Positions 4,515-37,061 of a stretch of DNA of 37,061 nt are shown one piece after another. Within the stretch, counting starts at the first letter, position 1. Each line of letters opens with the position of its first letter. Source of the DNA: Phycisphaerae bacterium (GTDB taxonomy: Bacteria > Planctomycetota > Phycisphaerae > UBA1845). The notes under the pieces were generated by a model. The model was not told the origin of the DNA. It ran no database searches and saw nothing but the letters and a program-made list of their open reading frames with translations. The position numbers and the translations under genes were made by a program. Where the stretch lies: NCBI GenBank assembly GCA_029260165.1, contig JAJDDT010000046.1, positions 1-37,061 on the forward strand, written 5' to 3'.

Positions 4515-6821
4515 GTGCGCGGTGAGCATGCGCAAGAAGGATGGAATGTTTTGTCCAACAGGAAAGAGACGCGGCGCGTCCGCAGCCGGTGGGCGTGTGC
4601 GGTAATCGTCGCGGTGATTATTATGGTATCTTCGAGTTTTCCGGGTTCCTCTTCTGCTGAGGGCGACGGCGTTCGCCGACCGATTCCGTCTGCGGAAGTA
4701 ATCAAAAAGCTTCCACCCGACGGCGGGCCTGAATTCAACCGACTTGTTTTTGAGAAAAGTCCCTACCTGCTCCAACACGCAGCCAATCCGGTGGATTGGT
4801 ATTCGTGGGGAGAGGCTGCCTTCGCGCGGGCGAAAAAGGAGGACAAGCCGATCTTCCTGTCGATTGGGTATTCGACCTGTCACTGGTGTCATGTGATGGA
4901 GCACGAGTCGTTTGAGGACGACGAGGTGGCTGCGCTTATGAACGAGCATTTCGTTTGTGTCAAAGTCGATCGCGAGGAGCGCCCTGATATTGACAATATT
5001 TACATGGGCGTGTGTCAGGCGATGACCGGTCGGGGGGGTTGGCCTATGACGATCGTGATGACGCCTGACAAACAACCGTTTTTTTCGGGGACCTATTTTC
5101 CCAAGTCAGGTCGTTTCGGTCGCAAGGGGATGATGGAGCTGATCCCCGAGTTGGGTGTCTTGTGGAAATCGGAGCGCGAAAAACTCCTTGCAGACGCGGA
5201 TCTGGTTGTCAGCAGGTTGCGGGCCGGGCAGTCGCAGGGTGCACGTGGCGAACTTGATGCAGGTACGCTTGATTTGGGACATGAACAGCTCCGACGGATA
5301 TTTGACGCGGACCGGGGTGGATTCGGTGGGGCACCGAAGTTTCCGACGCCACACAAGGTTTCGTTCTTGCTGCGATTCTGGGCGCGTTCGGAGTCCGGGT
5401 CTGCACTTCGGATGGCGGAGGAAACACTCGTCGCGATGCGCCGTGGTGGGATATATGACCATGTCGGTTTTGGTTTCCACCGGTACGCGACGGATGCCAA
5501 CTGGCTGGTACCACATTTTGAGAAGATGCTCTACGACCAGGCGTTGCTGGCGATCGCGTACGTTGAGGCGTTTCAGGCGACGGGCAAGGCTGAATATGCG
5601 CAGAGTGCGCGTGAGATTCTGACGTATGTGTTGCGAGACATGACCTCCCCGGAGGGTGGGTTCTATTCAGCGGAAGACGCTGACAGCGAGGGTGAAGAGG
5701 GGAAATTCTATCTGTGGGGAGCGGACGAGCTTGCACCGATTCTGGGGGACGACGAAGCGAAGCTTTTCGCCCGGGTTTTCAACATCAAGCCTGCCGGAAA
5801 CTTTCGGGCGGCTCATTCGCCACCGCGCACGAATATTCCACACCTGACGCGGTCGCTGGGCGAACATGCCAAAGACCTCGGATTGAGCGAGGAGGTGTTG
5901 CGTCAGCGTCTGGAAGTGTCGCGCCGCAAGCTGTTCGAGGTGCGTGAGAAACGGGTTCATCCTTACAAGGACGACAAGATCCTCACCGATTGGAACGGGT
6001 TGATGATCGTCGCGTTTGCCAAGGCTGCTCAGGCGCTTGACGCCCCTGAATATGCCAGGGCTGCTGAGCGGGCGGCTGATTTTGTGCTTGAGCGACTGGT
6101 GGACAAGAAGGGGCGATTGCTGAAACGTTTTCGCGATGGTGAAGCGGGTTTGCCCGCACACGTCGAGGATTACGCGTTTTTCATATGGGGATTGCTTGAG
6201 TTGTATGAAACCGACTTCGACGTCCGTTATCTTCAAAAGGCCGTCGCGTTCAACCGTGATTTTGTTGAGCGGTTTTGGGACGATCAGAATGGTGGGATGT
6301 TTTTTACGGCCGACGATACAGAATCGCCATTGGTGCGGATGAAAGAGGTGTACGACGGTGCGATTCCGTCGGGAAATTCCGTGGCGATGGGCAATCTCCT
6401 GAGGCTTGGTCGCATCACCGGCGACACGTCGCTTACGGAGAAGGCCGCTGCCATCGGGAGTGCGTTTTCGCAACAGGTGTCGCGCGGGCCTTCGGCGTAT
6501 ACGCAACTCTTGTGTGCGCTGGATTTCGGTGTCGGGCCATCGTTCGAGGTTGTGTTGGCGGGTTCGCTGGACGATCCGTCGATGACGGCGATGCTGCGAG
6601 GTCTGCGACATCGGTTCATTCCCAACAAGGTTGTTCTGTTTCGCCCGGACGGGGAAGCCCCACCGATCACGCAACTGGCTTCCTTTACGAAGAACCAGAA
6701 AATCCGCAACGGCAAATCGACGGCCTACGTTTGTCGCAATCATCGCTGTCGTCTGCCGACCAATGACGTCGAGGCGATAATCGCTGATCTGCTGCCTAAT
6801 GCGACAAGCAAAGCTGAATAA
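4515..6821 (+). CDS. YyaL/SSP411-type thioredoxin-domain protein (DUF255)
   Basis: The protein has 768 residues and two parts. The N-terminal thioredoxin-like domain (about 74-240) opens with K-S-P-Y-L-L-Q-H-A-x-N-P-V-D-W-Y and carries the C-x-x-C site in T-C-H-W-C-H (C122, C125). The rest is an alpha/alpha-toroid resembling N-acylglucosamine 2-epimerase/cellobiose epimerase folds, with [10 protein letters not shown] and [13 protein letters not shown] motifs. The family (YyaL in Bacillus, SPATA20 in animals) is widespread, but its reaction is not settled. Here a hydrophobic N-terminal segment (about 27-45, then S-S-S-A-E-G) suggests export. I used the GTG at 4515; a TTG at 4551 with AAGAAGGA upstream would give a more compact signal peptide. 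It ends 14 bp before the RND permease, so the two are probably co-transcribed. Confidence 0.9.
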
Positions 6822-33607: not shown

Positions 33608-34447
33608 ATGAACGTCGGCATCCTCACCAGCACCGACATCCGACACCGCTTTTTCGTCAACACCATCGCAGACGTCTTCAACGTCACCGCCATCGTCCAC
33701 CAGGACACAGGCTACATCCCCGCAGACACCGACAAGGAAAACCTCGACATACGCACCGCCAAAACCCTCCGAATGCACTTCAACGAACGCACCAGACAGG
33801 AGCAGGCCTTCTTCAACCACAACGCCCAAACCCGCACAGGACAATCCGACTGCAAGGTCTGTTTCGTCGATCCCAAAACACTCAACTCCCACGACACCGT
33901 CAACTTCCTCGCCCGCGCAAAAATCGACATCCTGCTCGTCTACGGCACCACCCTCATCAAACCGCCCCTGCTCGACCAGTTCGCAGGACGAACCATCAAC
34001 ATGCACCTCGGTCTAAGCCCCTACTACCGAGGCACCGCCACAAACTTCTACCCACTACTCAACGAGGAACCTGAATACGTCGGCGTCACCATCCACATGA
34101 TCGACCCCGGAATCGACACCGGACCCATCGTCCGCCACGCCCGCGCCGAAATCACACCCGACGACATGCCCCACACCATAGGTTGCAAAACCATCCTCGC
34201 AGGAATCGAAGCCATGATCATGACCCTCCACGAAGTCGAAGCCGGACGCACAAACCCCGTCCCACAATGGAATGAACCAAGCGCCAAACTCTACCAGCGA
34301 AAAGACTACTACCCATCCCAGGTCGTCAAACTCTACGACCTCATCGATAAGGGCTTGTTTACCAATTACGCCACCCGAATGGACGACGTCCAGGACGACA
34401 TGAAACTCATCAACCCAATCATGATCGGCCAACCCCTGACCGTGTGA
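33608..34447 (+). CDS. Formyltransferase-family protein (Fmt/sugar N-formyltransferase-like)
   Basis: The protein has 279 residues. AGGAG lies 8 bases before the ATG. It has the formyltetrahydrofolate-dependent transferase fold: N-terminal G-I-L-T-S-T, the catalytic triad N131-x-H133 ([12 protein letters not shown]) and D170 in G-I-D-T-G-P-I. It lacks the C-terminal tRNA-binding domain of methionyl-tRNA formyltransferase, and the region before the active site is longer. A small-molecule or sugar-nucleotide amine is therefore a likelier acceptor than tRNA, although no sugar gene is adjacent. It is divergent from the superoxide dismutase gene with 184 bp between. Confidence 0.85.
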
Positions 34448-34460
34448 CCGCCCCCAAACC

Positions 34461-34474
34461 GCGAGTACACTCGC
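34461..34474. promoter_or_regulatory. Palindrome, possible activator site
   Basis: GCGAGT-AC-ACTCGC is a perfect inverted repeat (6-bp arms, 2-bp centre). It lies 54 bp upstream of the sigma-54-type element, a usual place for an enhancer-binding protein. It also begins 14 bp after the formyltransferase stop, so a hairpin role is possible. Confidence 0.4.
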
Positions 34475-34527
34475 AGACCAACCCGCTCCCCACGTCCCAA
34501 AACGTCGATTCCCGCACAGCAACGCAT

Positions 34528-34543
34528 TGGCACGCCATTTGCT
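34528..34543 (+). promoter_or_regulatory. Sigma-54-type promoter (-24/-12)
   Basis: TGGCACGCCATTTGCT matches the consensus TGGCAC-N5-TTGCW at every fixed base, and the GG and GC doublets are 10 bases apart. It lies 53 bp before the start of the PP2C phosphatase gene and in non-coding DNA, which would place the transcript start near 34555. Confidence 0.65.
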
Positions 34544-34595
34544 TCATCACCATTCAGCGTCGCAGGTGTTGCGACCCGAATGTAAGGATGAGCTA

Positions 34596-35279
34596 ATGTC
34601 CAACACACAAATCAACAAACAATGGACCTTCAACGTCACCCCCTGGCAAAAACAAGCCGACAGGCAGGGCGGCGATTTCTACCTCATCCACCGTACCACG
34701 AACCACACACGTATTTTCATCGGCGACGTCTCCGGTCACGGCGAAGACGCCGCCCCTTTTGCAAACAAACTGCGACCATGGATCCAGCATCACCTCGCAA
34801 ACCACATGACCGTCAACACGCTGCGTCAATGGTCGAGCAAAGTGCGCAGGATGATGCCCAATCGTTTCGTCGCGTTCACCTGCATCCAGATCGATCGACA
34901 AAACGCAACCGCCGAAATCTTCGCCGCAGGAAACCCCGATCTCATCATCCGAAAACAGGATGGCACGACGACCTGCCTCGAAGCCAACGGCATGCCCTTG
35001 GGTCTTGTCGACGATCACGAGTGGGTGTCACCGCAACCCCAAGAAATCCAGATAGCAACACAGGACGAAATCGTCTGTTTCACAGATGGTTTGACCGATA
35101 CCACAAACAAAATCGATGAGCGCTTCGGCTTCAACCGCGTGCTGACCTCCATCACCGCCGCGACAAACGATTGCGTCGCCGCCATAAGATCAGCCGTCCG
35201 AACCTTCGCCGAAAGCGCCATCGCCCAGGACGACCTCACCCTTTTGAGAATCGCACCCATGACCCGAAAAGCCGCGTAA
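34596..35279 (+). CDS. SpoIIE/RsbU-type PP2C serine phosphatase
   Basis: A 227-residue, single-domain protein phosphatase. AAGGATGAG precedes the ATG at 34596. All metal-site motifs are visible: G-G-D-F (25-28), I-G-D-V-S-G-H-G (42-49), A-A-G-N-P, M-P-L-G-L, F-T-D-G-L-T-D (162-168) and Q-D-D-L-T-L-L (211-217). There is no N-terminal receiver, GAF, PAS or HAMP domain, so control must come from a partner or from transcription. The family usually dephosphorylates anti-anti-sigma (STAS) factors in partner-switching systems; no STAS or anti-sigma kinase gene is in the window. The upstream sigma-54-type element suggests regulated expression. Confidence 0.92.
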   Translation: MSNTQINKQWTFNVTPWQKQADRQGGDFYLIHRTTNHTRIFIGDVSGHGEDAAPFANKLRPWIQHHLANHMTVNTLRQWSSKVRRMMPNRFVAFTCIQIDRQNATAEIFAAGNPDLIIRKQDGTTTCLEANGMPLGLVDDHEWVSPQPQEIQIATQDEIVCFTDGLTDTTNKIDERFGFNRVLTSITAATNDCVAAIRSAVRTFAESAIAQDDLTLLRIAPMTRKAA

Positions 35280-35311
35280 GACCACGACTCCTGAGTTCCC
35301 TTACCTCTACA

Positions 35312-35359
35312 GGCGGAACAAGCCCGGACAACCACGTCCGGGCTTGTTTCGTTTCCGCC
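35312..35359 (+). terminator. Strong terminator hairpin
   Basis: AACAAGCCCGGAC (35317-35329) and GTCCGGGCTTGTT (35336-35348) form a perfect 13-bp stem with a 6-nt loop, followed by TTTCGTTT. An outer GGCGGAA/TTCCGCC pair can extend it. It ends the phosphatase transcript. Confidence 0.85.
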
Positions 35360-35431
35360 CCGACGTAACGTCACCATCGCAAGACGATCGCGCCGTCATC
35401 CATCGCGAAACCATTGTAGATGGGGATGAAA

Positions 35432-35460
35432 GCCCGTTGCGGGCTGGTAGGCTACCAGCC
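35432..35460 (+). repeat. Two consecutive hairpins upstream of the IS110-type transposase
   Basis: GCCCG-TTG-CGGGC (35432-35444) overlaps the perfect palindrome GGCTGGTAG-G-CTACCAGCC (35442-35460). They sit about 50-70 bp before the transposase start, so only one of the two hairpins can form at a time. Both IS110-end structure and guide-RNA folding are possible readings. Confidence 0.55.
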
Positions 35461-35469
35461 TGTGTTGAA

Positions 35470-36601
35470 GGACCCCTGTCAGGATTTTGAAAAGGAGCAA
35501 CGGGCATGGAGAATATACCGGTTTACGTTGGGTTGGACTACCACCAGGATTCGGTTCAGGTTTGCGTGCTGGATCCATCGGGAAACGTGCGGCAGAATCG
35601 TTCGTACGAGAATGATGCCCTGGTGATTGCGACGGTCGTGGAGAATCACGGGACGCAGGTGCATGCGGCGATCGAGTCGTGCACGGGTGCGCGGCGGACC
35701 TGGCCGACGAGTTGACCTTGCGGAGCGGCTGGACGATCGACCTGGCCCATCCGGGGTATGTGTCGCGCATGAACAAAACCCGGACAAGACGGATTTCACG
35801 GACGCACGCATGCTGGCGGACCTCGAACGCGTGGGGTACCTGCCCAAAGTGTGGTTGGCACAGCGGGAGGTTCGTGAGCTTCGTCGGCTGGTGCGTTACC
35901 GACAGCAACTGGTCGATGAACGTCGGCGGATCAAGCTGCGGGTGAGCGCCTTGTTGCGCGACCAGCGGGTTCGCAGCCCGTATGCTTCGGGAACCAAAGG
36001 CTGGCTGAACTGGTTGCGAACGACGAAGGAGGTCAGCGAAGAAAGTCAGTGGATTCTGAAACGACACGCAAGGCGACTGGTGTCTTTGGATCGAGACGTC
36101 AGGGAAGTGGAGACCCGGCTGACGCGGGTGACGAAGAAGGACCCGTTGGTGGCGGCGTTGCAGAAGCAAAAAGGCATCGGACCGGTGACAGCCTGGACCA
36201 TTCGCGATGAGATCGGCCGCTTCGATCGCTTCCGAAACGGCAGGCAGTTGTCATGGTTCTGTGGATTGAGTCCGCGCAATGCCTCGAGCGGTCAGCGACA
36301 GGCCGATGCGGGTTTGATTAAAGCGGGCAATCGACAACTGCGATCCACGTTGATGGAAGCCGCCCATCGCCTGATTCGGTTCGATGATCCGTGGAAGGTC
36401 TTCGCGGAAAAACTGCTGGCGCGCGGCAAGCCCAAATGTGTGGTGGTGGCCGCGGCGGCCAATCGGTGGATGCGCCGGTTGTATCATCAGATGCAGCCAG
36501 CCAGGCTGGCGGCGTAGGAGACAACCGCCTCTGTTTTGGAGCGGAACAGGTGACCCGTGATCCCGTGCGTGTGAGGATGAGCTCGTCCTGCCCCTGGGTC
36601 C
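35470..36601 (+). mobile_element. IS110-family element, approximate extent
   Basis: The transposase reading frames at 35506-36517 define the element; its ends are not certain. GGACCCCTGTCAGG at 35470-35483 and the complement of 36587-36601 (GGACCCAGGGGCAGG) resemble one another (about 11 of 15) in inverted orientation. They may be subterminal inverted repeats of the IS1111 kind. No target duplication was recognised, as expected for this family. Confidence 0.35.
35506..36517 (+). pseudogene. IS110-family transposase, broken by two frameshifts
   Basis: AAGGAG lies 8 bases before the ATG. The DEDD (RuvC-like) domain starts with V-G-L-D-Y-H-Q-D-S-V and continues to A-I-E-S-C-T-G near 35690. The expected continuation A-A-D-L-A-D-E-L then appears in a second frame (two extra bases or one lost). 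At about 35774 the frame shifts again: M-N-K continues as N-P-D-K-T-D-F-T-D-A-R-M-L-A-D in a third frame, consistent with one lost A in the run of four. The rest, including the transposase-20 domain (K-G-I-G-P-V-T-A-W-T, C-G-L-S-P-R-N-A-S-S-G, K-A-G-N-R-Q-L-R), is open to the stop at 36515-36517. Two shifts make programmed frameshifting unlikely; the copy is probably inactive. Confidence 0.85.
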
Positions 36602-36941: not shown

Positions 36942-37061
36942 TTACTCTCCAGGCATGACCTGATCTGGTCCATGTCGATCTCTGATTTGGACAGAGTTTC
37001 TCGCATGGTTTTGGTGTGGCTGAGTTTGGCTTCGGTGTTGCGGCGGCGATGATAGGCGATC
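36923..37061 (-). CDS. Partial gene at right edge, possibly transposase C-terminus
   Basis: The last 45 codons of a minus-strand frame that enters from beyond the right edge; the stop is TAA at 36925-36923. Third codon positions are strongly G/C, as in real genes here. The peptide has Y-H-R-R-R-N-T-E near the start and S-K-S-E-I-D further on, loosely like the Y-H-R-R-S-N-V-E...S-K-T segment at the end of some DDE transposases. The match is weak and the family is uncertain. It overlaps the dockerin-like remnant by 19 bp in another frame. Confidence 0.35.
   Translation of the reverse strand, partial: IAYHRRRNTEAKLSHTKTMRETLSKSEIDMDQIRSCLESNFALYC

Follow-up and report, generated by a model that had tools for sequence, protein, structure and literature searches.

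A predicted sigma-54 promoter and an upstream palindrome precede the gene of a SpoIIE-domain PP2C phosphatase in a Phycisphaerae bacterium

The phosphatase gene and its control region

The window analysed here is the entire contig C60 (37,061 nucleotides), one of 119 contigs in a 4.43 Mb Phycisphaerae genome (G000). It carries a lone PP2C phosphatase gene that is separated from a formyltransferase-like gene on the same strand by 148 non-coding bases, in which the following features were recognised.

33608-34447, plus strand: formyltransferase-like gene (Formyl_trans_N), the upstream neighbour, whose last codon lies 13 bp ahead of the palindrome
34461-34474, no strand assigned: palindrome GCGAGTACACTCGC, GCGAGT-AC-ACTCGC, also readable as GCGAG-TACA-CTCGC; candidate site of an activator (enhancer-binding protein)
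34527-34543, plus strand: predicted sigma-54 -24/-12 promoter element TTGGCACGCCATTTGCT, read in the sequence; its exact core also precedes the homologue in a related genome, G015
34552-34556, plus strand: expected transcription start, about 12 nt past the -12 C, placed by geometry
34559-34575, plus strand: second inverted repeat with 6-bp arms, GTCGCA-GGTGT-TGCGAC, within the predicted leader
34584-34588, plus strand: AAGGA, ribosome-binding-site-like, 7 nt before the ATG, recognised by eye
34596-35279, plus strand: lone PP2C phosphatase gene of 227 aa, SpoIIE domain only, by profile match and alignment

The phosphatase matches PF07228 (SpoIIE) over residues 36-219 of 227 with an E-value of 6.1e-31 and 108.3 bits, against a cut-off of 25. 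Only 35 residues lie ahead of this match, no second Pfam family was found at E <= 0.01, and the Pfam search revealed no RsbU-type N-terminal sensor or switch domain. The conserved acidic residues of PP2C phosphatases bind metal. Aspartates 27, 44, 164, 168, 212 and 213 are invariant in an alignment of five homologues and, judged from that alignment, the acidic residues that an active PP2C would be expected to have are intact in the window protein.

Downstream of the phosphatase gene, an IS110-type transposase frame spans 35627-36517. The frame is listed from 35627, yet an ATG follows AAAAGGAGCAACGGGC at 35506, and the 5' part of this IS110-family transposase seems to be out of frame. At 37026-37041, TTGGCTTCGGTGTTGC is a repeated element with nine copies in the genome, at least six of them within 40 bases of a contig end.

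The promoter element TTGGCACGCCATTTGCT matches all 13 of the 13 specified bases of YTGGCACGNNNNTTGCW and shows canonical spacing, with GG at 34529-30 and GC at 34541-42 in a TGGCAC/TTGC core. An earlier note on this DNA had claimed a -24/-12 consensus with exact spacing, and this claim was confirmed. Its placement of the element in non-coding DNA before a SpoIIE/RsbU-type phosphatase also stood; the orientation is right, but the distance to the ATG is 52 bp and not 53 bp. TTGGCACGCCATTTGCT is the only match to YTGGCACGNNNNTTGCW in the window at up to one mismatch, and it has none. Shuffled sequences contained a mean of 0.27 such matches, with at least one place in 24 of 100 shuffles. The pattern TGGCACNNNNNTTGC occurs exactly once in the window, and at seven places with up to one mismatch, against a shuffle mean of 3.1. 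In sigma-54 promoters, transcription starts approximately 12 nt after the -12 element. The leader predicted on this basis folds no better than its shuffles. A search of 34300-35500 for a sigma-70-like promoter returned none, which is uninformative because shuffles average 0.5.

Sigma-54 elements in the genome and its relatives

The genome encodes RpoN (one match, E 4.7e-53) and ten strong activator domains (E <= 3.2e-60; four weak matches were set aside). The activator domain family matched, weakly or strongly, in 14 of 14 control genomes. The exact core TGGCACNNNNNTTGCW was found nine times in the genome, against four times for a reversed-pattern control, and these four control matches indicate that chance alone yields a few exact cores per genome. 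Four of the nine cores are intragenic: the gene caller places L004, L009 and L010 inside genes, and L003 was assigned by hand to a ferredoxin-like frame. The remaining five are non-coding, four of them before genes and one before a structured RNA. Those before genes begin 66, 68, 77 and 82 bp ahead of the start codons for PilZ, PP2C, lipoprotein-like and Hsp20 proteins. Pfam supports the PilZ (E 3.5e-7) and Hsp20 (E 9.7e-27) assignments, and the 99-aa lipoprotein-like protein has no Pfam match. It is thus placement, rather than the number of cores, that sets the element of the phosphatase gene apart from chance.

The fifth non-coding core, TTGGCACACGGGTTGCT, is an exact sigma-54 element at G000:C64:9659-9675. 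Behind it lies an RNA stretch of about 215 nt (G000:C64:9433-9648; L008:1275-1490, minus strand) with several stems and a predicted folding energy of -106.9 kcal/mol (z -6.0 against shuffles), which ends in a terminator-like GC stem followed by T8. Rfam at gathering thresholds gave nothing in this locus, in the window or in the loci of the G021 and G040 homologues described below, and among the loci examined the stretch has no relative beyond a 17-base match. It is a candidate sigma-54-dependent small RNA. On another contig (L092; G000:C46), TTGGCACGGAACTTGCC lies 116 bp ahead of a CXXCH cytochrome gene, with the start taken from the gene caller, and an activator gene is found on the same contig.

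Dyads of the form GGGC-N6-RCCC lie 45-97 bp ahead of the core at the PilZ and lipoprotein-like genes. The pattern GGGYN6RCCC is exact before the PilZ genes of G001 (L151) and G015 (L154) and occurs exactly twice before the G000 lipoprotein-like gene (L007), and the PilZ gene of G000 (L002) has a GGGC-N6-RCCC dyad at 7/8. The background is 10 exact occurrences per 145 kb, a figure that includes the two lipoprotein sites. From this pattern, one activator possibly controls both PilZ and the lipoprotein. The same activator probably does not serve the phosphatase gene, where matches reach only 7/8, at the background rate, and none falls within the non-coding stretch ahead of the promoter.

In four relatives, the exact core was found 39 times against 25 control matches, a small excess (G001, 12 versus 6; G015, 4 versus 3; G024, 13 versus 7; G021, 10 versus 9). 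Thirty of these 39 cores were inspected; six were tagged intragenic, and five of the nine from G024 are copies of one sequence. The exact core precedes genes for PilZ (G001 and G015), Hsp20 (G021), GroES (groES; G001), a response regulator (G024) and a homologue of the PP2C phosphatase (G015), with the families confirmed by Pfam. Judged by the gene families behind these exact cores, PilZ, chaperones and PP2C recur behind the sigma-54 element.

At E <= 1e-20, homologues of the phosphatase occur in 11 of the 114 genomes of the order, its own genome counted, and, among 397 class genomes sampled, in none from outside the order. The nearest named homologues belong to MAGs called Phycisphaerae or Phycisphaerales. 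A scan of contigs recovered the same five homologues and a series of weak ones (best 80 of 98), with at most 31% identity except for one fragment at 34%; the scan with P0001 alone as query confirmed no homologue. G001, the one same-genus genome examined, has no close homologue. The closest clade (support 80/89) comprises the window protein and the homologues in G015 (L012), G024 (L013), G021 (L014) and G040 (L015). A further homologue, L017 (G030), was left out of the promoter comparison, its upstream region being cut by the contig end.

Among the four clade homologues compared, the exact element precedes one (G015), only the -24 part precedes two (G021 and G040), and neither part precedes the fourth (G024). 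The G015 homologue, which is the best-scoring at 43% identity, has the exact core ATGGCACACGGCTTGCT 93 bp before its ATG. The G021 and G040 homologues retain TTTGGCACGC, a perfect -24 element, 113 and 109 bp before the start, and their -12 regions read GTGAC and GTGAT, without the consensus GC. The G024 homologue, also 43% identical, has neither a -24/-12 element nor a dyad. The conservation that the earlier note had proposed as a check gave a mixed picture in this sample of four: the element is exact in G015, lacks the -12 GC in G021 and G040, and is absent in G024.

Scores on our own weighting (maximum 16) were 16 for the window, 15 for G015, 13 for G040, 12 for G021 and 11.5 for G024, where random 300-bp stretches have a median of 11 and a 99% quantile of 14. 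The G015 score was attained in 14 of 3000 random 300-bp stretches. Scores of 12 and 13 are attained in 25% and 5% of random draws, respectively, so the G021 and G040 scores alone are unconvincing. The promoters of these two homologues are supported instead by a comparison of the 340 bp upstream of each, where overall identity is 56%. Unbroken identity of nine bases or more is confined to CGTTTGGCACGC, which is the -24 element of the PP2C gene, and AGCGTGCCAA, which belongs to a divergent TTGGCACGCTRAATGCT as its -24 element, so that the sole long identical runs coincide with the two -24 elements.

The match before the phosphatase gene could have arisen by chance, with transcription of the gene coming from a promoter that went unseen or from read-through of the formyltransferase-like gene. 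The four control matches in the genome, the intragenic position of four of the nine exact cores, the small excess over control in the four relatives and the bare G024 homologue all speak for such an origin. Chance sites, however, would be expected mostly in coding DNA, whereas this one is non-coding and in the right orientation at the right distance; it also agrees with the consensus at all 13 specified bases, and its exact core is found again upstream of the G015 homologue. A chance match thus appears very improbable. Sigma-54 control of the phosphatase, as the earlier note had proposed, is well supported by the presence of RpoN and ten strong activators, by sensibly placed sites elsewhere in the genome and by the exact core before the G015 homologue. 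On these grounds, the -24/-12 element of the phosphatase gene is very probably functional.

The palindrome as a candidate activator site

The palindrome GCGAGT-AC-ACTCGC is perfect, as the earlier note had described, although it lies 52 bp upstream of the promoter motif (53 bp before TGGCAC) and not 54 bp. Its centre is 62 bp from the GG of the -24 element and about 86 bp before the expected start. Enhancer-binding proteins bind dyads roughly 80-200 bp before the start, and activators often use two or more sites, whereas only one such dyad precedes the phosphatase gene.

By its length alone, the palindrome is not very rare. When the 80 bases from the gene end to the motif were shuffled 2000 times, arms of at least six bases (gap 0-10) appeared in 2.5% of the results; shuffling all 148 intergenic bases gave 18.5%. 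The 4.43 Mb genome has one exact copy; allowing up to one mismatch brings the number to 20 strand hits (10 places), where a reversed-pattern control gives 30. A genome-wide operator was rejected on the basis of this single exact copy and the lack of any excess with one mismatch.

Support for the palindrome comes from matching dyads before two of the four homologues, in a comparison made post hoc. Aligned with it are GTGAC-CTAT-GTCAC in G021 and GCGAC-TTAT-GTCGC in G040, which differ from one another by symmetric substitutions and are centred 72 and 74 bp, respectively, away from the -24 GG. The form common to all three is GYGAS-N4-STCRC. Strict dyads of this form number 13 in 1.03 million distinct positions, and three of these are the window, G021 and G040 sites, in loci gathered partly by these very patterns. 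Of 92 -24/-12-like sites, five have a strict dyad 40-150 bp upstream, against 0.13 expected for a form that was defined post hoc. All five lie in control regions of the PP2C clade to which the phosphatase belongs. G021 and G040 are near relatives and count as about one event in the dyad comparison.

The earlier note had suggested that the palindrome might be sought near other sigma-54 promoters; when 38 further exact sigma-54 sites were counted, not one had a strict dyad. The G015 homologue has the promoter without a strict dyad (best 7/8, which is background level), and a simple count across 16 sigma-54 sites revealed no shared upstream word or dyad above shuffles.

The palindrome may be unrelated to a real promoter, being a repeat that arose by chance or a small structure at the 3' end of the upstream gene, with the activator binding elsewhere or acting from solution. 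The shuffle frequency of 18.5%, the lack of genome enrichment and the dyad-free promoter of G015 fit such an explanation. So does its position, since the palindrome begins 13 bp past a gene end and a one-mismatch copy on contig C78 starts 10 bp past the end of a kinase-like gene. As RNA, it also folds better than its shuffles (-7.3 against a mean of -2.5, sd 1.5). An intrinsic terminator was nevertheless rejected, as the palindrome lacks a T run and 34300-35500 holds no intrinsic-terminator-like site. The symmetrically substituted dyads at a similar distance before the G021 and G040 homologues likewise argue against an unrelated repeat. We regard this explanation as a serious one, somewhat short of an even chance. 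Binding of an activator at the dyad 34461-34474, in turn, is given even odds from the sequence comparison.

The G021 palindrome also fits the CRP-type consensus, TGTGA-N6-TCACA, and a CRP-like regulator may act there. Beyond the dyad in both G021 and G040 lies the divergent TTGGCACGCTRAATGCT, one base off consensus at -12, and divergent sigma-54-like elements flank the conserved palindrome (L081, about 5865-6105, and the matching part of L082). In G021, the divergent element points towards a frame that would encode a protein of 1728 aa, the start of which resembles a signal peptide. The arrangement looks as if, in these two genomes, one activator site served two divergent promoters.

Phosphatase targets, proposed control and known systems

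The genome contains eight STAS matches and seven HATPase_c_2 matches, three of the latter strong (RsbW-like). Three STAS/kinase pairs were found, one on contig C117 and two on contig C70, and some STAS genes have no partner kinase match. The phosphatase contig has no STAS or RsbW-type match, and no STAS or RsbW-type genes were recognised by eye beside the homologues. Possible targets thus exist, but they are unlinked to the phosphatase gene, as the STAS/RsbW-like pairs lie on C117 and C70. A STAS protein as the substrate has about the same chance of being right as of being wrong, judged from the gene families present. The earlier note went further and linked sigma-54 to another sigma pathway through the phosphatase; this step we only infer.

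The target could also be of a non-transcriptional kind, such as a STAS-controlled enzyme, a transporter, or a biofilm or secretion regulator. Two of the STAS/RsbW-like pairs adjoin ABC-transporter-like and chemotaxis-like genes (assigned by eye), and the STAS genes that lack a partner kinase match point the same way. The neighbourhood of the G024 homologue (L080:5361-12507) includes a TPR gene and a YscJ/FliF-family gene (E 2.9e-24) whose product has a lipoprotein-like start; it is perhaps a type III secretion-like cluster, a setting found there only. SypE/SypA of Vibrio fischeri, for its part, acts on biofilm formation (PMC10120452). None of these settings is linked to the window phosphatase gene, and a non-transcriptional target is plausible but rather less probable than its opposite.

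It is proposed that the phosphatase gene is transcribed from the sigma-54 promoter at 34527-34543. A signal-responsive enhancer-binding protein of the genome would bind upstream, probably as a dimer on 34461-34474, and contact the sigma-54 RNA polymerase by looping, which would turn the gene on. As the search of the phosphatase turned up neither a sensor nor a regulatory domain, its activity would probably be set by the amount made. The phosphatase would then dephosphorylate at least one STAS-type antagonist encoded elsewhere and so shift a partner switch. For this account as a whole, from the sigma-54 promoter and an activator at the dyad to a STAS partner switch set by phosphatase amount, we estimate a probability of roughly 0.68.

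A broader version is unlikely on present evidence. It would hold that a small Phycisphaerae clade makes a sensorless PP2C on demand through a dedicated GYGAS-N4-STCRC activator, with two divergent promoters per dyad in two genera, and that a sigma-54 stress regulon (Hsp20, groES, PilZ and the structured small RNA) is thereby joined to a second sigma pathway. The promoter, the dyad and the candidate small RNA provide concrete sites for probing the sigma-54 regulon of Phycisphaerae. If the proposed account is true, it suggests a partner-switch phosphatase that is controlled by amount and not by a built-in sensor.

The phosphatase shares its catalytic domain (PF07228) and conserved acidic residues with RsbU, RsbX and SpoIIE. 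RsbU and SpoIIE carry a sensor or membrane domain, whereas none was found in the window phosphatase. The only solved relative found by sequence at E <= 0.01 is Rv1364c (3ke6, E 4.5e-5). One study of predicted sigma-54 regulons in Planctomycetota reports that chaperone groups, the small heat-shock proteins among them, are enriched, chiefly in Planctomycetia and to a lesser extent in Phycisphaerae (PMC12316311). The Hsp20 and groES sites described here fit this enrichment, whereas RsbU, SpoIIE and PilZ are absent from the main text of that study by word search (PMC12316311). Within the accessible portions of the literature searched on sigma-54, PP2C, partner switching and planctomycetes, the present arrangement was not recognised as one already described in planctomycetes.

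In Vibrio fischeri, the sigma-54-dependent activator SypG and the PP2C-containing partner-switch protein SypE belong to one pathway (PMC5019070, PMC10120452). SypE, as described there, combines a serine kinase, a receiver and a PP2C domain, whereas the window phosphatase has the SpoIIE domain only. In Chlamydia trachomatis, a knockdown study reports that loss of sigma-54 decreases the transcripts of rsbV (-4.26) and of the PP2C-like phosphatase CTL0852 (-4.17) (PMC10597470). For rsbU, it gives a decrease of -2.34 in a double sigma-28/sigma-54 knockdown, with no value for sigma-54 alone (PMC10597470). Chlamydial RsbU differs from the window phosphatase in having a periplasmic sensor domain, of which none was found here. 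The likeness is that sigma-54 acts on partner-switch genes in another PVC member, as seen from these transcript changes, whether direct or not. Given the Chlamydia and Vibrio fischeri precedents, the general link between sigma-54 and partner switching is already known. If the proposed account is true, Phycisphaerae would join Chlamydia as a second PVC branch with a phosphatase-driven switch that is fed by sigma-54.
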